From Ryuthela nishihirai (taxonomy: Eukaryota > Arthropoda > Arachnida > Araneae > Heptathelidae), in assembly GCA_038380435.1 (NCBI GenBank), contig JAWZYU010000018.1:49028251-49092250 (forward strand): a stretch of DNA of 64,000 bases. Reading direction: 5' to 3'. Each line of letters begins with the position of its first letter. Position 1 is the first letter of the stretch. Below, in pieces: positions 10,268-58,490 of this stretch. A program made the translations under genes and the position numbers. Under the pieces are notes generated by a model that was not told where the DNA came from, did no database searches, and saw only the letters and a list, made by a program, of their open reading frames with translations.

Positions 10268-11220
10268 CACCCAGTTCCCCACTAATACGACAGATGCGTT
10301 CTTCAAAAAAAAAATCGTGTAAGGCGAAATCGTGTTAACCAAGGGTGACCATAGAGTAAAGGCTGGAAAAGAGAGCATTCTTCTTTTTTTTTTTCAAATT
10401 CATTTTCAATAATAAAATGAAAAAAAAAACTTGATAGGAACTTTAAGATCATCATTAAAAGAAAATTATTTTCCTAAAAGTAGCGCGTTTAACAGCTGCT
10501 CATAATTAAGGTAGTTTTCCTCGGAAGGGGGCGGGGGTGGCTCAGTCGGTAGCGCGCCAGGCTCGTAATCTGTAGTTCCCAGGTTCGAGTCCCAACTGGG
10601 TCAGCGTTGAGATTTATCTCCGCAAAATTCCCCGCCCTGCCCACGGTCAGTAGGGGACACCGATGGGCTTGGAAAGGCCGCCGTCCGTCGGATGGGACGT
10701 TAAGCCGTGGTCCCGTGTGCGGGAGAGCCATACCCTGTGCACGTTAAAGAACACGCTGGATGGCCTTGACGGGAGGCTACCATCTGTCTCCCAACAGCTG
10801 TTCCAGTGGGTCCCCTCCCACAACCTTCTCTGAGCCTTCGGGGTCCATGTGACCTGGCCATTTAGCCCATGGTGTGCAAAAAAGTGCCGCTCAGAGGTAA
10901 AACAACCAACCAACCAACCTCGGAAGATTCATATTCAATATTAAGCAATCGTAGGTGAATCAAGTATCACTCTGAACAATCAGGAATAATACATGATGTG
11001 AAGTTGACAATTTGGATACCATTCAAGTATTCTAATTCTTTATTTAAATATTAAAATTATTTCAGTACATTTTAAATTTCACTTCTTTTAAAACTTTTTT
11101 TAGTAAAATATGAACTTTTCTATCGTTAAAAAAATGGCAGATAAATCATGTTAAACCGAACGACCAATTGCGTTAGTCGAAAACCAGACCTAATTTAAAA
11201 ATCGTGTTTAACCAACGACG
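10268..11220. mobile_element. Possible Tigger-related relic split by a SINE
   Basis: CACCCAGTTCCCC at 10268 resembles the left terminal repeat of the Tigger element at 52199 (CACCCAGTTCTG). Runs such as 'aaaatcgtgtaaggcgaaatcgtg' (about 10310) and 'aaaaatcgtgtttaacc' (about 11198) resemble the 'aaatcgtgtaaaaa' subterminal words of that element. The opposite terminus is not clear. A complete SINE sits inside. Confidence 0.4.
10528..10917 (+). mobile_element. Full-length tRNA-derived SINE (best copy)
   Basis: This 390 bp copy defines the family. Box A (TGGCTCAGTCGG, 10538-10549) and box B (GGTTCGAGTCC, 10582-10592) form an RNA polymerase III type 2 promoter within a tRNA-like head. The body contains 'aggggacaccgatgggcttgg', 'gggacgttaagccgtgg' and 'acgctggatggccttgacgg'. 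The end is 'gtgccgctcagaggtaaaac' with a (CAAC)n tail. The exact 9 bp target duplication CCTCGGAAG lies at 10519-10527 and 10918-10926. It has no coding capacity, and its mobilising LINE is not identified. Confidence 0.93.
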
Positions 11221-17444: not shown

Positions 17445-17718
17445 AGAGAATACACATCGCCATAACATTTAACACCTTCTTTCTGTCTTCATCGGCTAAT
17501 CTTAATACAGTTACATCTTGTTGCATTTATTATACTGTTTTACGATTTCAGTTGAAAACTTCAATATTGAATAATTTGCTCCCTTTATTAAAACTTTTAC
17601 CCCCATTTTTCACTTCGAATATTTCATAATCCCATGTGATTTTTATATTCACCTTCAACACTAAAAAAATTGTTAGCAGGCATTAATTTTAATTTAAATG
17701 AATGAATTTGCGTTGTTT
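17445..17718. other. AT-rich spacer
   Basis: No gene or repeat recognised between the Tc1 right end and the SINE cluster. Confidence 0.5.
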
Positions 17719-18600
17719 CACCTCTTAGCGGCAGTTTTGTGTATTCAATGAGTAAATAGCCAGGTCACGAGGACTCCAAGAACTCAGAGAAGGTTGGGGA
17801 AGGGGACCCATTGCACAGCTGTTAGAAGATAGATGAAAGCTTTCCGTCAACGCCATCCAGCGTTTTCTTTAAAGTGCACAGGATGTGACACTCTTGCACA
17901 AGGGTTGGGTTGGATTGTTTTACCTCTGAGCGGCACTTTTTTGCACACCATGGGCTAAATGGCCAGGTCACATGGACCCCGGAGGCTTAGAGAAAGTTGG
18001 GGGAGGGGACCCACTGGAACAGCTGTTGGGAGACAGATGGTAGCTTCCCGTCAAGGCCATCCAGCGTGTTCCTTAAAGTGCACAGGATGTGACACTCTTG
18101 CACAAGGGTTGGGTTGGTTTGTTTTACCTCTGAGCGGCACTTTCTTGCACACCATGGGCTAAATGGCCAGGTCACATGGACCCCGAAGATCTCAGAGAAA
18201 GTTGGGGGAGGGGACCCACTGGAACAGCTTTTGGGAGACAGATGGTAGCTTCCCGTCAAGGCCATCCAGCGTGTTCTTTAACGTCCACAGGGTATGGTTC
18301 TCGACGACAAGATAAATCTCGACGCTGACTCAGCTGGGACTCGAACCTGGGAACTACAGATTACGAGCCTGGCGCGCTACCGACTGAGCCACCCACCCCA
18401 TCCCCTCTTGCACAAGACCCGCGGCTTAACGTTCCATCCTACAGATGACGAACTTCCCAAGCCCAATTGTCGTCCCTTTCTCACCGAGGACAGAACGGGA
18501 ACTAGTGGAGAAAAATCCTCAATACAATCGCAGTTAAAACTCGAACCTGAAAACGGCAGAATAAGATTCTAGCGCTACAACTGAGCCTCTCCCTGCCCCA
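17719..18600 (-). mobile_element. Nested SINE cluster: older SINE split by a younger one plus tandem duplication
   Basis: An older minus-strand SINE starts at about 17719, is interrupted after 'ctcttgcacaag' (17891-17902) and resumes at 18405 with the same word, ending with worn box sequences near 18600. Between them lies a younger minus-strand SINE ending in a good head (box B GGTTCGAGTCCCAGC and box A TGGCTCAGTCGGTAGCGCGC on the minus strand, 18331-18393). The junction between old and young copies is present twice, at 17901 and 18105, exactly 204 bp apart. Confidence 0.87.
17887..18294. repeat. 204 bp tandem duplication across a SINE-SINE junction
   Basis: Two near-identical units each include 'gacactcttgcacaaggg', 'ttgggttgg', the tail 'ctgagcggcacttt' and the body to 'ccatccagcgtgtt'. 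They are best explained by unequal exchange between the outer and inner SINEs after insertion. Confidence 0.8.
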
Positions 18601-35288: not shown

Positions 35289-35306
35289 GCATAGAGTATA
35301 TTGGTT

Positions 35307-35689
35307 GGGTTGTTTTACCTCTGAGCGACACTTTTTGCACACATTGTTTTAAATGCCATGTTAGAAGGACCCCCCCCCGGGGGGGGCTCAGAGAAGGTTG
35401 GGGAGAGTGGACCAACTGTACAGCTGTTACTAGACAGATGGTAGCCTTCCTTCAAGACCCTTCAGATTGTTCTTTAATGTGTACATGGCATGATTCTTCC
35501 GCACACTGGCCACGGCTTAACATCCCATCTCACGGACGGCTGCTTTTCCAACCCCATCGGTGTCCCCTACTGACCGAGGGCAGGGTGTTTTACAGAGATA
35601 AATCTCAACGCTGGCCAATCTGGATCTCGAACATGGGAACTGCAGATTATGAGTCTGACACGCTACCGACTCTGCCACCCCCTTCCCCA
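35307..35689 (-). mobile_element. SINE copy, near full length
   Basis: Reverse orientation from the tail 'gttttacctctgagcgacac' to a worn head near 35680. A run of C then G (CCCCCCCCCGGGGGGGG) near 35370 is an oddity within the body. Flanks GTATATTGGTT (35296-35306) and GTACGTTGGTT (35690-35700) form an 11 bp duplication with two differences. Confidence 0.87.
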
Positions 35690-42329: not shown

Positions 42330-43135
42330 TAGTTTTTACCTATAGCAGAATAGGCAGAACTAGGCATACGTTACCGACAATAAATATAATCGTGCCAGTA
42401 TTTATGCCGTGCTGCAATCCACAAATCTCTGATTACCAACATCAATGCGACAAAACGTGTGTTTTTCCTGTAAGTATGGTGCACGTAAGATGCTGCAAAG
42501 CACATAAAAACAGGGATTCTAAAGACTGACAACATGTCATCTGCTCTGATGAACCGTGATATACATTGTTTTCCACCACTGGTAGAGTGTACGTCTGATG
42601 AAAACCTGTAGAAGAGTACCAGCCCGACTGTTTGGTTCCGACTCTGAAGCATGAGATGAATCACTGATACTGTGTGTGTGGGGGGGGGGGGGATATCATA
42701 GCATTCCTTAGGATCATTACTTATTCTACAGGGTCGTGTCACCTCCGCAACGTACGAACCCATTCTCTGGGACCACCTGCACCCAATGTTGCCGGCATTG
42801 TTCACTAATAACCGTCTCTGGTTTCAGGTGGATAATGCACCCGTGCATTGTGCGAAACGTGTCAAGTTGTGGTTTGCAGAGCACGAGGATGACGTACAGC
42901 AGCTACCCTGGCCACCTCAATCTCCAGACCTCCATATTATTTAACATTTGTGGGAATATCTGGAGCGGAAGGTCAAATCATATCTTCCACCTCCAGCATC
43001 ACTGGCGCAGTTGGTCATATTTTACACGTAGATTGGTCCCACATCCGATTACCGTATGTGCATGATTGGTATAAGTCTATTCCACGTCGAACTGAGTCTG
43101 TTCTGAACGTCCGAGGTGGGCCTATAGTTTATTAA
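42330..43135 (+). pseudogene. Tc1-like transposase fossil G
   Basis: Plus-strand pieces of a Tc1-type transposase. The block around 42555-42660 corresponds to the DESxFTLFPTxGRVYVWRTP..CLVPTVKHG region, out of frame. At 42836-42950, DNAPVHCAKRVKLWFAEHED and then LPWPPQSPDL form the second catalytic aspartate block and the SPDLNPIE region, here ending in a stop. SIPRRTESVLNVRGG at about 43075-43120 is the usual C-terminus. The first 200 bases are only weakly similar. The LTR element inserts 115 bases downstream. Confidence 0.85.
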
Positions 43136-43245
43136 TAAAATGTTCTCCACAACCAGTGCGTGTTTCCATTATTTTGATTATTTCCATTATTTTGATATTT
43201 GATTATTTAATATTCCATTACCTTGTGTATAAGTGCTATTTCATA

Positions 43246-43249
43246 ATAT
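43246..43249. repeat. Left 4 bp target duplication of LTR element
   Basis: ATAT here and at 47330-47333 flank the element, within the 4-6 bp range of LTR retrotransposons. AT-rich flanks make this duplication weak evidence on its own. Confidence 0.65.
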
Positions 43250-43895
43250 TGTTGCGGATTACAAAAAAAAATGGATAGCCACTGAGCGTGAGTATTAAAA
43301 GCTATATTTCAAAACCAAATTCAATACAAGGTAAATTGTTACAAAGGAAATATGGATGAAGTATCTTATTAACAAATCAACTATTAACATGCACAAGTCA
43401 TCAATCTTCCTGCGTAGAGCACACAATATCAGCTCTGTGTATTTTACTAAATACTACCTTTTACTTGATTTACCAGGTCACCCGAAGATCTTCACTCGTA
43501 AACCAATTCTCGTCCTGTGCTAATAACTTTTCACACACTAGCCGAACAAAAAGACAGTCCGTGTAGACATTCGAAGTTAGCCATAAAAGTTCCCACTTTT
43601 ATACTTCCGCGTATACACAACACATCAAGTTACTTCTTGATACTTAACGATAAAAGATCCCACTTTTATCCTTCCGTGTATACACAACACATCAAGTTAC
43701 TTCTTGATACTTACGCGCACTGTCTCAGAACAGCTCACCGTCCATTTTCGAACTCCTCGACCGTTACAACACAACAACCGTTACAATACAAAACGACCGT
43801 TAACGCTCCACTCTTCTTCTCCAAATTCTCCCAACGTTCTTATTCGTTGGCTGAAACTTTTTGCTTTCGGTTGCCAGATTCCTTCTGTCGTAACA
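43250..43895 (-). repeat. 3' LTR
   Basis: 646 bp, from TGTTACGACAG (at 43895) to CCGCAACA (at 43250) on the minus strand. Compared by eye with the other LTR, the only difference is 'ctattaacatg' here against 'ctattagcatg' there. It contains the 67 bp duplication with TATA words. Its first 96 bases on the minus strand also encode the last 31 codons and the stop of the internal frame. Confidence 0.96.
43584..43713. repeat. 67 bp direct repeat in U3, 3' LTR copy
   Basis: Two units (43584-43650 and 43651-43713) share 'taaaag.tcccacttttat', 'tatacacaacacatcaagtt' and 'acttcttgatactta'. Each contains the small palindrome ATCAAG..CTTGAT. The arrangement recalls retroviral enhancer repeats. Confidence 0.85.
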
Positions 43896-46652
43896 CTGCC
43901 CCCTTCCTAGGTCTTGTTCGTCCCGAACAATTCTGGATTCCAAAGTTTCTTCAGTTCTTCGATGAAACGGGGCCAAACGATCCACGTGAACCAGCTTGCA
44001 CTTTGTAGCTGGACGTCGACGAATGCGATATACCACGTCTGTGTCAAAATGAAAGCGAATCTCATTATGACGTAGATTTCTTTTCTGACTGAAGCCTCGT
44101 CCACAAACATAATACGTGTAAGGCCTATAGCCCTTGTGAACACGTTTATGTCTCTGCAGGGAGAAGAATCGACTAAGAGTTTTCGTGCAAAACCTGTAAA
44201 AAGTTTTCTTCTTTGTCGAAAGTTTTCTTTTTTGGATTTTTACTTCTATCAAGAGTAACAAGGAATGAAAGTCATTAGTGACATAAAATCTAGGGAGAAG
44301 TTTCATCCTCCAGTCTGACCTTTTTGTCAGTTGACTTTCCCTTAATTCAGAACTGTCGTGATGAACCTTCAGCCATATTTCACCTGATTCCATTTGATCC
44401 CCAAGGTGCTTCACAAATATAATATCAGCTCCATAATTCTTTTTAGCTCTTCGGTCCATCTCCTCCTTCCATACTCTTGCTAGAACTGCAGCTTCTAATC
44501 CGACAACCTTACCTGTTTCTCCTGTATAAGTGAAATCAGTGATGTGTCGGGCTGCTAACAATATTTTTTCTGTTTTACCTTCACATAGCCAGCTTGCAAC
44601 ATCTTCAGATACTCCTTGTTCTATTAACATGTTACGAAACTTGTTCAAAGCATTGCCGTTATGCAGAACCTTACGGACACGTGATGCTTCATCTACCCTA
44701 TTATCCACAATGTTCACAAAACGCAGAAGTTCTCCTAACTCCTCGACGAGCTCTTGCAGTTCCAAGGATCCGTTACCAAGGAAACACTGAACAGCTTCCA
44801 TCACTTCCAGAGAGTTGTCAACAGAGTTTTCAAGAGGTGAATCCATGTTGCTGATAACAGCTGAACAACTCAAACTCTTCATTCCACGAGCTTGTGATGC
44901 TGCAACCACTTTCTTAACTAAATCAACAGCAACATCTTCTGTACTGATGAGATCAATAGCTCCTTTTCCGAATTCAACATCATAAACCAAAGCGCACACT
45001 CCTTCAGCCAGCTTTTTGGACACAATTGAGCATCTCCTTAGAGGAACGCTATCTACGGTAGCCGTCAGATCCTTGCAGCGGTAAATCTCCTTATCTGTTG
45101 GCACCAGCTCCTCTGTCTGTCCTACGATGCAGCATCCGACGTCTTCCATCATCTGCTCGATTTTATCTTTAGTGCAGTCGACTGTGAAGCCAGGGATGGA
45201 TTCCAATTTGTCCAGAGTATCTCCCGTCAATTGGAGAGCACGACCGGAGATCATAGGGACCTTGAGACCTAAAGCAGCAAGTGCAGGAGCCAAGACAAGA
45301 CTCACTTTGTCGCCGACACCTCCTGTACCGTATTTATCTACCATCCGATGGCGCCACTCGGGTCTCCAGCAAAACACATGACCCGAGGAGGTCATAGTTG
45401 CTGTTTCTTCGGAATTCAGTTTCTTGGAGCTCTCATTGTAATTAGCCAGGGAAACATCAGTCATGATTGCCAAATTGTTCATTCTGGAGATCAGCGACGA
45501 GTTTTGTAACATGATATTGTCCACTTTAGAGCTCTTGTAATCGTGATAAAACTTTTCTATATCCTTATAATCTAAATGGTTATAATGTCCAAATCTGCAC
45601 ATTGACTGTTCAGAAAAGAAATTCAGCATGGTTTCGTTGAGATTGTCTGAGGGCTTTACTTCTCTCTGATCGTAACTCTGAGGCTTAGTTTCATCCAGAA
45701 AGTTAGTCTTTGAAGTACCGTCTCTGCCTGAAGCTCTTTTACTAGCATCACCTGTTATGCTTCTAAGCCATTCTTCGGAATTCCTCTTCCTTAAATCCCC
45801 ACTTTCTATAAACGATTCAAGTGTGGCTATATGCTTCGGAAAAATCTCTCCGACTTCCCTGGTAACGACGAAGGGCACTTTGTATCTATGATGAATGGAC
45901 GCCTCTTCTTTACTCGGACCACTCTGCGAAACGTAAACTCTGTTTCGTTCCCCTTCATTACCACTCGTTACTCTGCCTTTGCGATAATTGTCCATGACGC
46001 ATTTTGCTGACAGCGAGGAATAGAATACCTTTCGTGTGGATCTCTCTTCAGATCGTGCCAGACTTGTATACCTAGGTATTTTGAAGTGCAAAGCGTACTG
46101 TATAGTCTCACAGCTCTCTGATCTGTGTGATTGTTCTTCACAGTTCCTAAACATGTCACCAGCGACATAGACACTCTGCCATGCATTACCAGTAGTTGCG
46201 TGGTCAAAGGCATCATCTGCGCTATCTCTACAATTCTTGATTTCCAGTAGCAGATCCACATTTTTATATGCGTTGCCTTTCTCTTTTTCTTTTCCATGTT
46301 TACAATCTAACTTAACACTATCAAGATCATCTTTTTCACTGACAGATTCAACATTTAAACTATTGCATTGTCTATTGAGTTCGGTTTTATGATCCTTGAA
46401 CTGATCAATAATCTTACCAACTTGAGAAGCCACTTCAGCTCTCATCTCAGTATTTTGTGCGGCCAGATCACCTCTTTTATTCCTCAACTCATTATTTCGT
46501 GCGGCCATTTCGGCTTTCATTTCATCTAATGTACTATTTTGTGTCGCTATTTCGGCTTTCATATCTTTCATATCAGTCATCTGCGTAGCCATATCGACTT
46601 TCAAGCTATTTATCAACTTTACTAATTCATCCATACCTCTAGTTAACGGCAT
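43800..46652 (-). CDS. Gag-like / thymidine phosphorylase / zinc-finger / integrase-tail fusion protein
   Basis: One uninterrupted frame of 950 codons. Residues 1-100 form a charged coiled coil with 11-residue repeats (DMKAEIATQN, EMKAEMAARN), as in some Ty3/gypsy gag proteins. Residues 101-410 are unrecognised, with no CCHC knuckle seen. Residues 411-775 are thymidine phosphorylase, which splits thymidine with phosphate into thymine and deoxyribose-1-phosphate. Visible blocks include KYGTGGVGDK (440-449), SGRALQLTGDTLDKLE (469-484), GCCIVGQTEELVP (506-518), LTATVDSVP (529-537) and SIVSKKLAEG (542-551). Residues 815-868 contain a degenerate C2H2 zinc-finger pair, and residues 870-905 an integrase C-terminus (DVVYRIRRRPATKCKLVHVD, RLAPF). 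The last 31 codons lie in the LTR. The ATG at 46652 is 12 nt beyond the primer site. Compared with E. coli TP (numbering from memory), His85 is Tyr441, Ser86 is Gly442 and Arg171 is Lys527, so activity is doubtful. Confidence 0.9.
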   Translation of the reverse strand: MPLTRGMDELVKLINSLKVDMATQMTDMKDMKAEIATQNSTLDEMKAEMAARNNELRNKRGDLAAQNTEMRAEVASQVGKIIDQFKDHKTELNRQCNSLNVESVSEKDDLDSVKLDCKHGKEKEKGNAYKNVDLLLEIKNCRDSADDAFDHATTGNAWQSVYVAGDMFRNCEEQSHRSESCETIQYALHFKIPRYTSLARSEERSTRKVFYSSLSAKCVMDNYRKGRVTSGNEGERNRVYVSQSGPSKEEASIHHRYKVPFVVTREVGEIFPKHIATLESFIESGDLRKRNSEEWLRSITGDASKRASGRDGTSKTNFLDETKPQSYDQREVKPSDNLNETMLNFFSEQSMCRFGHYNHLDYKDIEKFYHDYKSSKVDNIMLQNSSLISRMNNLAIMTDVSLANYNESSKKLNSEETATMTSSGHVFCWRPEWRHRMVDKYGTGGVGDKVSLVLAPALAALGLKVPMISGRALQLTGDTLDKLESIPGFTVDCTKDKIEQMMEDVGCCIVGQTEELVPTDKEIYRCKDLTATVDSVPLRRCSIVSKKLAEGVCALVYDVEFGKGAIDLISTEDVAVDLVKKVVAASQARGMKSLSCSAVISNMDSPLENSVDNSLEVMEAVQCFLGNGSLELQELVEELGELLRFVNIVDNRVDEASRVRKVLHNGNALNKFRNMLIEQGVSEDVASWLCEGKTEKILLAARHITDFTYTGETGKVVGLEAAVLARVWKEEMDRRAKKNYGADIIFVKHLGDQMESGEIWLKVHHDSSELRESQLTKRSDWRMKLLPRFYVTNDFHSLLLLIEVKIQKRKLSTKKKTFYRFCTKTLSRFFSLQRHKRVHKGYRPYTYYVCGRGFSQKRNLRHNEIRFHFDTDVVYRIRRRPATKCKLVHVDRLAPFHRRTEETLESRIVRDEQDLGRGQCYDRRNLATESKKFQPTNKNVGRIWRRRVER
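43896..43910 (-). promoter_or_regulatory. Polypurine tract
   Basis: On the minus strand AGGAAGGGGGCAG abuts the TGTTACGAC start of the 3' LTR, the expected place and composition for the plus-strand DNA primer of an LTR retrotransposon. Confidence 0.88.
43938..44045 (-). other. Integrase C-terminal remnant (codons 870-905)
   Basis: DVVYRIRRRP..K.KLVHVDRLAPF is the characteristic ending of Ty3/gypsy integrases, just upstream of the polypurine tract. It is the only pol sequence left and shows where the parental element resumes after the captured DNA. Confidence 0.85.
44049..44210 (-). other. Degenerate C2H2 zinc-finger stretch (codons 815-868)
   Basis: FFSLQRHKRVHKGYRPYTYY and CGRGFSQKRNLRHNEIRFH follow the C2H2 layout: Phe and Leu core, HxxxH, a linker like TGEKPY, then a second finger. 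Several zinc ligands are missing. It may be a fragment of a cellular zinc-finger gene picked up with, or independently of, the phosphorylase. Integrase N-terminal zinc binding is of the HHCC type and does not look like this. Confidence 0.6.
44328..45422 (-). other. TYMP: Captured thymidine phosphorylase segment (codons 411-775)
   Basis: Co-linear with about the last 360-370 residues of animal thymidine phosphorylase, beginning near the LNSEET/WRHRMVDK region and running into the C-terminal domain (VKHLGDQMESGEIWLKVHHD). The N-terminal helical part, roughly 90-100 residues, is missing or unrecognisable. No intron interrupts it, as expected for capture from mRNA. The recognised homology is extensive and not a single motif. 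The symbol denotes the homologous gene; this copy is a fragment within a retroelement protein. Confidence 0.9.
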
Positions 46653-46664
46653 TCAATTAATTAA

Positions 46665-46681
46665 TCCCACTTCTGACACCA
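46665..46681 (-). promoter_or_regulatory. tRNA primer binding site
   Basis: On the minus strand, TGGTGTCAGAAGTGGGA starts two bases after the 5' LTR. It complements a tRNA 3' end of ...TCCCACTTCTGACA plus CCA, which from memory fits a tRNA-Leu (CAA) type. Confidence 0.85.
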
Positions 46682-46683
46682 AA

Positions 46684-47329
46684 TGTTGCGGATTACAAAA
46701 AAAAATGGATAGCCACTGAGCGTGAGTATTAAAAGCTATATTTCAAAACCAAATTCAATACAAGGTAAATTGTTACAAAGGAAATATGGATGAAGTATCT
46801 TATTAACAAATCAACTATTAGCATGCACAAGTCATCAATCTTCCTGCGTAGAGCACACAATATCAGCTCTGTGTATTTTACTAAATACTACCTTTTACTT
46901 GATTTACCAGGTCACCCGAAGATCTTCACTCGTAAACCAATTCTCGTCCTGTGCTAATAACTTTTCACACACTAGCCGAACAAAAAGACAGTCCGTGTAG
47001 ACATTCGAAGTTAGCCATAAAAGTTCCCACTTTTATACTTCCGCGTATACACAACACATCAAGTTACTTCTTGATACTTAACGATAAAAGATCCCACTTT
47101 TATCCTTCCGTGTATACACAACACATCAAGTTACTTCTTGATACTTACGCGCACTGTCTCAGAACAGCTCACCGTCCATTTTCGAACTCCTCGACCGTTA
47201 CAACACAACAACCGTTACAATACAAAACGACCGTTAACGCTCCACTCTTCTTCTCCAAATTCTCCCAACGTTCTTATTCGTTGGCTGAAACTTTTTGCTT
47301 TCGGTTGCCAGATTCCTTCTGTCGTAACA
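46684..47329 (-). repeat. 5' LTR
   Basis: 646 bp, the promoter-bearing LTR for the minus-strand transcript. Same length as the 3' LTR and one visible base difference. It contains the same 67 bp U3 duplication at 47018-47147. Confidence 0.96.
47031..47037 (-). promoter_or_regulatory. Probable TATA box in 5' LTR
   Basis: TATAAAA on the minus strand within the repeated U3 unit. The other unit has GATAAAA. It is a plausible core promoter for the element; the transcription start was not located. Confidence 0.5.
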
Positions 47330-47333
47330 ATAT

Positions 47334-57055: not shown

Positions 57056-58490
57056 TACAAAGGAAAAAATCTTCTTGACCCATTCTGTGATCCCATAAGA
57101 AATGACCATGACAATGCCTTGAAGTACCTTGAAAAATTTTCCTCATGGTTGGATAAGTGGAAAGTCATTGTAGTTCCTGGTTTTTCTACTTCTAAACAGT
57201 TTGGAAAATTAACACAAGAAACATTTTTCCCTTAAGACACACCACAGAAACACTGCTAATTATGTTCATATATATTTACAGTTTCCAAACCTAAATATAT
57301 ACTTTTAGGAAAATTTCAAACTGATAACTTAGAGAATAGATTCATTTGCTATCAGCAAATGAGTGGTGTAAACTATAATGTATCAGTGACTCAAATCTTA
57401 GAATCTGAAAAGAAACTTAAACTTATTTGTTTTTGATTCAATTAGTTTGATCAAGCTACATTCAACTAAAAGGGTGAGTTTACATTAAAAGAATTTATTG
57501 GAATTGGTTCTGAAATTGCTGTTTGTGACAGAATGAGTACTGACATTAATAAAGATTTTGAACATGTTATTGAGGAGTCTGAAGTTGTATGTATTACAGA
57601 TGAGACTAAACAGATATTGGTTGTTATCAGTGGCTCTGTAGCATATTCCACAGGTAAGACTTTAAAATCTGCAAATTGTAAAATTCTCTTGTAGTATGAA
57701 ACTGCTTTTGAGATTGATTGGGGCGGGGGTGGCTCAGTCGGTAGCGCGCCAGGCTCATAATCTGCAGTTCCCAGGTTCGAGTCCCAGCTGAGTAAGTGTT
57801 TAGATTTATCTCCGCCAAACTCCCCGCCCTGTCCACGGTCAGTAGGGGATACCGATGAGCTTGGAAAGGACGCCATCCATCGGATGGGACGTTAAGCCGT
57901 GGCCGCATGTGCGGCAGATCCATACCCTGTGCACGTTAAAGCACACTCTGGATGACCTTGACGGGAGGCTACCATCTGTATCCAAGCAGCCATTCCAGTG
58001 GGTCACCTCCCCCAACCTTCTCTGAGCCTTCGGGATCCTTGTGATCTGGCCATTTAGACCATTGTGTGCAAAAAAGTGCCACTCAGAGGTAAACCAACCA
58101 ACGAAATTGAGATTGATTCTTCACATGTAATACAAATATTTGCTTGAAAACAGCAGAGTGGTCTGAAATGGCCAAAAGATTTTCTTGTATGTTTAAGTAT
58201 TACAGCATTCCAAAATTTCAAAGCAATAATTAGTGAAGAATATGAAGATAAATTTATATGCTCAAAAAAATCAGCATTTCATTTTAAAATCTTTATGTTT
58301 GAAGAGCTTTGAATCTCAATACTTAAATTTAGATAAATTTTGCACCTGTGGATCAACATTAAGAAAACTTACTGAGAAAGCACTAAATGTGTTTTTAAAC
58401 ATTCTGTTGAGAAATTATTGCAAAGTCAAAAATGACCCTGTTCAAAGCATAAAGAGTTCAAAGAAGAGAAATCTTACTGCATTGCTGTAA
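57056..58490 (+). pseudogene. P-element/THAP9-type transposase, C-terminal half, broken
   Basis: Fragments in order: DPFCDPIRNDHDNALKYLEK (about 57075-57140) with FSSWLDKWK, then GKFQTDNLENRFICYQQMSG and VNYNVSVTQILESEKKLKL (57307-57425), which is the hallmark block of P/THAP9 transposases (GKFQTDPLExRFGxYRQxSGxNYxVSVxQVLExEKK). These are followed by VISGSVAYSTGKTLKSANCK (about 57617-57680) and, beyond the SINE, CGSTLRKLTEKALNVFLNIL and KKRNLTALL (58340-58488). The GTP-binding insertion, most of the RNase H core and any THAP zinc finger were not found upstream. Stops and the SINE insertion inactivate it. Confidence 0.85.
57720..58106 (+). mobile_element. Young full-length SINE inside the P-element transposase
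   Basis: 387 bp. Box A TGGCTCAGTCGG and box B GGTTCGAGTCC are intact, and the tail ends 'aaaccaaccaacgaaa'. A perfect 12 bp target duplication TTGAGATTGATT lies at 57708-57719 and 58107-58118. It is very similar to the copy at 10528, implying recent activity. Confidence 0.94.

Follow-up and report, generated by a model that had tools for sequence, protein, structure and literature searches.

A Probably Non-Autonomous LTR Element with a Captured, Presumably Inactive Thymidine Phosphorylase Piece in the Spider Ryuthela nishihirai

Introduction

Large non-autonomous long terminal repeat (LTR) elements, the LARDs, are not known to code for proteins. Other LTR elements carry pieces of cellular genes. 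In the parts of the reports available to us, maize Bs1 is described as an LTR element with ATPase, xylan endohydrolase, and glucanase pieces (PMC13317346), and crocodilian endogenous retroviruses are described as having captured KIT-ligand and nectin3, with purifying selection reported on the captured frames (PMC4299795). Orchid Ty3/gypsy elements, again from a portion of the source, have a 2-ODD RNA demethylase domain in an extra open reading frame (ORF) that keeps the cofactor-binding residues and is called functional in the title (PMC9289625), and the accessible text on bdelloid rotifers lists LTR elements with dUTPase, GDSL esterase, and DEDDy exonuclease ORFs (PMC5408684). Here, we analyzed a 64-kb stretch of the Ryuthela nishihirai genome (contig JAWZYU010000018.1, positions 49,028,251 to 49,092,250; the whole stretch is called the window below), which holds an LTR element whose single long frame includes a piece of thymidine phosphorylase (TYMP). 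It is very probably a non-autonomous TYMP-carrying LTR element, likely mobilized in trans by full-length relatives, with a TYMP piece that is predicted to be inactive and drifting.

Results

Structure of the Element

The element was read on the minus strand, its frame was searched in pieces against Pfam and NCBIfam, and its copies and relatives were sought in the 3.11-Gb assembly holding the window. In window numbering, it consists of the following parts:

47330..47333, right copy of the target site duplication ATAT
46684..47329, minus strand, 5' LTR, 646 bp
46664..46681, minus strand, primer-site-like TGGTGTCAGAAGTGGGAT, just inside the 5' LTR
43800..46652, minus strand, single frame of 950 codons including the stop, which lies inside the 3' LTR
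46263..46652, minus strand, gag start with coiled coil, residues 1-130
45420..46262, minus strand, stretch B, 281 codons (residues 131-411, 843 bp), upstream of the TYMP piece
44322..45419, minus strand, TYMP piece, 366 codons, residues 412-777, corresponding to about residues 87-452 of human thymidine phosphorylase (TP)
44046..44321, minus strand, degenerate C2H2 zinc-finger-like stretch, with the finger at about 44085-44189
43896..44045, minus strand, integrase C-terminal end, terminating in the polypurine tract
43896..43908, minus strand, polypurine tract AGGAAGGGGGCAG, directly before the 3' LTR
43250..43895, minus strand, 3' LTR, 646 bp, with 1 difference from the 5' LTR
43246..43249, left copy of the target site duplication ATAT

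Both LTRs start with TG and end with CA. The primer-site-like motif, which we take to be of the tRNA-Leu type, has the same position in 10 aligned rows, with one base different in locus L009. The coil matches the gag start of full-length relatives up to about residue 123, at 67-87% DNA identity, and from about 44039 onward the DNA of the integrase end agrees with the pol end of the relatives at 98-99%. The integrase end of the window element scored 30.0 bits with Integrase_p58_C when scanned alone (cut-off 27) and 26.2 bits in a longer piece; no protein relatives of it were found among 38 candidates. The zinc-finger-like stretch matched zf-H2C2_2 with an E-value of 9e-6, but its 26 bits fall short of the curated cut-off of 40. 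Since no reverse transcriptase (RT) or integrase core domain was detected with Pfam in the 950-codon frame, the window element appears to be a non-autonomous derivative. Stretch B had no DNA match to the gag-pol relatives and no protein relatives among 1182 candidates (proteins of about 357-1137 residues). Pfam and NCBIfam gave no assignment for it; a PANTS-like identity (E-value 0.0018 with 19 bits, below the cut-off of 27; E-value 0.0033 when searched alone) was not accepted.

An earlier sequence-only reading had described the two 646-bp LTRs, primer site, and polypurine tract around the 950-codon frame, and all of these were confirmed. It had also placed about 365 TYMP residues between a gag-like coil and the integrase end, which the 366-codon match to Pfam, NCBIfam, and database relatives bears out. 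Its parts of the frame were right, but the zinc-finger-like stretch and the 843-bp stretch B had been missed. The proposal that TYMP had replaced most of pol holds insofar as pol is mostly gone, but it understates the change: the C-terminal half of gag is gone as well, and, besides TYMP, further sequence without a match to the relatives has entered the element.

The Captured Piece and Its Active Site

Residues 412-777 matched Pfam Glycos_transf_3 (E-value 3.4e-33) and the NCBIfam thymidine phosphorylase model PRK05820 (276 bits, cut-off 269). The piece is 46-49% identical to the TYMP of horseshoe crabs (Limulus and Tachypleus), and the best database relatives, those of horseshoe crab, spider, and other TYMPs, lie at 43-49% identity, with 49% as the maximum among the 120 relatives listed. 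Among solved structures, the human enzyme scored 258 bits and bacterial enzymes at most 183. The fold predicted from a 33-row alignment had a mean pLDDT of 88.3, and its best match was human TP (2j0f), with a TM-score of 0.91 over the query. In a 26-row tree, three element copies stood on a branch of 0.97 at an open fork with horseshoe crabs and other non-spider TYMPs. By their level, the identities would fit a chelicerate or some other arthropod, a choice that the tree leaves undecided. Altogether, the sequence and the predicted fold place the piece in the thymidine phosphorylase family.

The segment is a continuous, intron-free match of 366 codons between the LTRs. It starts past the N-terminal helical domain (PF02885), which is absent from the frame, and no clear TYMP N-terminus was seen upstream of 45420 in any other frame. 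A weak in-frame resemblance to such an N-terminus is present in the residues immediately preceding 412.

Catalytic residues, numbered as in human TP, were read in 14 TYMP segments, 13 of them readable at positions 116 and 153. Arg202 was replaced by Lys in all 14 segments and Gly153 by Asp in all 13 readable ones, and His116 had become Tyr or Asn in 10 of the 13. The three segments that kept His116 (L014, L028, and L035) all had the Arg202 and Gly153 changes, and none of the 14 segments had His116, Arg202, and Gly153 together. Other active-site positions, e.g., Ser217, Lys221, and Tyr199, were unchanged in 14 of 14. The window copy keeps 72 of the 86 columns that are conserved in at least 97% of the 120 relatives; among these relatives themselves, the worst loss was 10 of 85 columns and the median was 0. 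According to the accessible part of a study of the human enzyme, activity is lost when His116 is changed to Phe or Lys, the dimer interface is made up of the N-terminal helices, and Arg202 to Lys is not among the mutants tested (PMC2719695). The TYMP piece is predicted to be enzymatically inactive.

Selection on the Frame

The ratio of nonsynonymous to synonymous substitution (dN/dS) was computed pairwise among the 14 TYMP segments and for pol pieces of the full-length relatives. It reached 0.99 for TYMP, with variable sites spread 29/22/31 over the codon positions, and 0.05, 0.20, and 0.19 for RT, RNase H, and integrase of the relatives, respectively. The spread over codon positions differed between TYMP and the pol pieces (Fisher p 0.0007, with three L013 columns belonging to pol dropped). 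With this dN/dS and this spread over codon positions, the residues of TYMP appear to be free of constraint.

The frame itself behaved as follows. None of the 14 segments had a stop of TYMP's own, against 2.6-3.6 expected (P 0.03-0.08, borderline), the one stop counted in L013 falling in the joined pol part. All five small indels in TYMP were multiples of three, which has a chance of 0.004 if one in three is expected. The fused frame from the gag start to the zinc finger was open in 7 of 14. Of the 13 segments of stretch B, three had frame-breaking indels and one more had a stop. Its dN/dS was about 0.5, as was that of the zinc finger, in which few changes were seen. The youth of the copies alone may explain the open frames.

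Copies and Full-Length Relatives in the Assembly

Candidates called first-look here are unscored; only part of them was scored, and ranking by score favors intact copies. In the search with the LTR, 40 of 1875 candidates were scored, all 40 matched the LTR family of the window, and the loci around them were extracted. Among them were 12 loci with TYMP elements (the window, L009-L014, L017, L019, L020, L021, and L028), 11 with gag-pol relatives (L015, L016, L018, L022, L024, L026, the outer element of L028, and L030-L033), and three lone LTRs (L023, L025, and L027). The LTRs of the gag-pol relatives closely match those of the TYMP elements; the relatives at L018, L022, L024, and L026 extend beyond the extracted stretch.

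Searched by pieces with Pfam, L016 followed the Ty3/gypsy order, with a zinc-knuckle gag and then aspartyl protease, RT, RNase H, and integrase. Its gag frame has 415 codons and its pol frame 1218, from stop to stop, and L015 is alike. For the other relatives, the RT, RNase H, and integrase pieces alone were read; they had no stop and one frame-breaking deletion (L018). The pol order of L016 would place the family in Ty3/gypsy (Metaviridae), the window element keeping only the integrase end.

In the TYMP protein search, all 93 scored places (the best of 2519 candidates) matched, at 47-50% identity to Limulus; 84 of the 93 had no stop, and an open frame of at least 900 was found in 68. In the TYMP DNA search, 40 of 40 scored places (the best of 2008 candidates) matched at 99-100% over the segment. 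Protein matches, DNA matches, and extracted loci together put TYMP at at least 145 distinct places on 43 contigs. The unscored first-look counts (2008 for TYMP DNA, 1712 for RT, and 1875 for the LTR) hint that the TYMP form may be about as common as the full-length form.

The LTRs and integrase end were 96-99% identical to those of the window in most copies, and identity to the gag start of the window was 72-100% in TYMP copies and 67-87% in the relatives. Between the gag start and stretch B, L014 (1569-2080) and L010 (1385-1893) have a 512-bp stretch that contains inner repeats and that the window copy lacks; part of it occurs in L035. Eleven places on 11 contigs have it at 100% identity. It gave no Pfam match at an E-value of 0.01, and its donor was not found among its 40 scored genome places, all of which were near-identical repeats. 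L009 (490-8043) is an array of LTR-interior-LTR-interior-LTR, i.e., two TYMP elements sharing one LTR, with TTAT at both outer ends, and it perhaps arose through unequal LTR recombination.

Signs of Movement and Recombination

Identical 4-bp flanks were present in 18 of 18 copies, of both the TYMP and the gag-pol kind, that were complete in the extracted stretches, and in all three lone LTRs. Most flanks were ATAT; TTAT (two), CTAT, ATAA, and ATAC were also found, each matching. Of the 18 complete copies, 17 had LTR pairs with 0-3 differing sites, the exception being L019, with 6 sites and 71 gap columns and a truncated 3' LTR. One TYMP element is nested inside the gag of a relative (L028 5498-8519 / L029 2498-5519), where identical 4-bp pieces of gag flank it. 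L013 (2540-5253) is a recombinant in which TYMP runs into the RNase H-integrase part of a relative, with a 4-nt word shared at the join. The matching flanks, the nested copy, the few LTR differences, and the identical 512-bp stretch at 11 places indicate a recent spread of the element family.

The Donor of the Captured Piece

The N-terminal domain of a host TYMP was not found in the assembly with Limulus residues 1-72, PF02885, or P0006 residues 1-87 as queries; these searches were weak, with 3, 9, and 4 candidates scored and only prokaryotes as controls for the PF02885 genome search, and split exons or low first-look sensitivity could hide the gene. The only two PF02885 matches were rejected as host TYMP, both lying in DNA that is bacterial by eye and trpD-like. 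The locus L036 (G000:C16:11096433-11099534) is GC-rich, bacterial by eye, and has a trpD-like frame within a 75-Mb contig; it could be a bacterial insert or contamination.

Neighboring Sequence

Beside the element, at window positions 42371-43140, there are frames that we take, from their look, to be a decayed Tc1/mariner-type transposase. A dispersed repeat of about 380 bp has many copies in the window (10528-10913, 17713-18302, 35301-35688, 57720-58105, and others). A borderline Rfam tRNA match at 18326-18398 (minus strand) adjoins one cluster of this repeat, perhaps a short interspersed element (SINE).

Discussion

The TYMP form and its full-length relatives have in common the LTRs, the primer site, the leader with the gag start, and the integrase end with the polypurine tract. 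Such a set is generally the least that an element needs to be packaged and reverse-transcribed in trans. In the non-autonomous element that we propose, the RNA would be packaged by the Gag of the relatives via the shared leader and gag start, and the captured pieces would have been acquired through template switching between co-packaged RNAs, with spliced host mRNAs as the simplest sources. The TYMP protein would have no enzyme activity, and its residues would drift. The join in L013 shows an exchange between TYMP and pol directly, and we infer the same kind of switch for the capture of TYMP and the other pieces.

The sequence-only reading had pointed to further copies of the fusion and to an autonomous parent with matching LTRs; the same assembly had such copies (TYMP at at least 145 places) and, at 11 loci, full-length relatives whose LTRs match. 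Its capture from spliced host mRNA agrees with the intron-free segment, but the donor, a host TYMP gene with introns, did not emerge from the three N-terminal-domain searches. As for its mobile, intact nucleoside-metabolism fusion, a mobile LTR element carrying TYMP stands, but a working fusion is unsupported, because the piece lacks the N-terminal domain, has changes at catalytic positions, and shows a dN/dS of 0.99 among copies.

Several points weigh against the account given above. With no host TYMP donor found, capture of a spliced mRNA in the same species is something we infer. The prevailing flank, ATAT, is a palindrome that occurs often where DNA is rich in AT, and a target preference could explain part of the matching. 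A single recent capture does not predict the variation of the gag start without fast change of the coil repeats; such change is the simplest account of it, an older capture followed by later LTR exchange being another. The open TYMP frame and its in-frame indels are not what a pure passenger predicts.

The same open frame raises the possibility that the fusion protein is made and useful, Gag-start-TYMP being kept translatable as a scaffold, Gag partner, or dominant-negative, with no catalysis. This would agree with a TYMP frame open in all 14 segments (the pol part of L013 set aside), with the five in-frame indels, with the seven open fused frames, with the dN/dS of about 0.5 in stretch B and the zinc finger, and with the 84 of 93 stop-free TYMP places, a proportion biased by the score ranking. 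It is at odds with the dN/dS of 0.99 and the 29/22/31 spread of variable sites in TYMP, with the other seven copies that have no open fused frame, and with the frame-breaking indels (3 of 13) and further stop in stretch B, and the stop deficit alone reaches only P 0.03-0.08; we consider it unlikely. A selected open frame with free residues is a rather doubtful proposal: the element would need continuous translation of a Gag-TYMP pseudoenzyme, not catalysis, in a lineage that seems to rival its full-length helpers in number. If true, continuous translation could, for example, stabilize the RNA of the element and keep it attached to its own nascent Gag start. A further possibility, an active thymidine phosphorylase encoded by the element and aiding reverse transcription through changed nucleoside pools, would have in its favor the intact predicted fold and the His116 kept in 3 of 13 readable segments; it was rejected on the absence of the dimer-interface N-terminal helices and on the changed residues (Arg202 to Lys in 14 of 14, Gly153 to Asp in 13 of 13, and His116 to Tyr or Asn in 10 of 13), and we hold it to be highly improbable.

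The origin of the piece and of the locus itself may also be read in other ways. TYMP could have been acquired from a different arthropod, through exchange with one of its elements or mRNAs, as the failure of three queries to find a host N-terminal domain and the branch of 0.97 leading to the element clade at its open fork might suggest. Against this, no closer donor occurs among the 120 listed relatives (at most 49% identity), and the N-terminal searches were weak (3, 9, and 4 scored, no eukaryote control, split exons missed); such an origin seems improbable to us. We give practically no credence to the view that an assembly error or duplication placed LTRs around an ordinary host TYMP gene or retrogene: no supporting point was found, the copies are dispersed over many distinct places with matching flanks of their own, and one continuous frame joins the gag start, TYMP, and the integrase end.

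For the non-autonomous element with a drifting TYMP piece, one genome offers fusion copies together with their likely helpers, as well as a recombinant and a nested copy, most of them young. How a piece is captured by template switching, how an element depends on helpers, and what becomes of a captured enzyme can be read from these sequences. There is also a warning for annotation: what is called as a thymidine phosphorylase gene in a genome of this kind may belong to a transposon. LTR elements that capture host genes are already known; in agreement with the sequence-only reading, no retroelement with thymidine phosphorylase appeared in the titles or abstract openings of the open-access literature (PMC).

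Like LARDs, the element keeps the LTRs, primer site, and polypurine tract, has lost pol, and has likely moved in trans; unlike them, it has a long open frame with a recognizable enzyme fold. As far as the accessible parts of the respective reports allow, it shares with the rotifer elements the standing of an animal LTR element with an enzyme-derived ORF, the rotifer dUTPase also belonging to nucleotide metabolism, whereas the rotifer ORFs are additional to gag and pol, and thymidine phosphorylase is unmentioned in that portion of the text. With the orchid elements, judged from the available part of their description, it shares the Ty3/gypsy family and an enzyme domain carried through several replication rounds, but here the fusion costs pol and the catalytic residues are changed. 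The crocodilian case, in the text at hand, is likewise a multi-copy animal retroelement lineage, with capture there from host mRNA; those elements are endogenous retroviruses, whereas the element in the window has a truncated enzyme piece whose residues appear unconstrained. Like Bs1, as the consulted portion of that report presents it, the element is an LTR element holding pieces of several unrelated cellular genes; unlike the plant Bs1, it is an animal element with TYMP, occurring at at least 145 places beside full-length partners.
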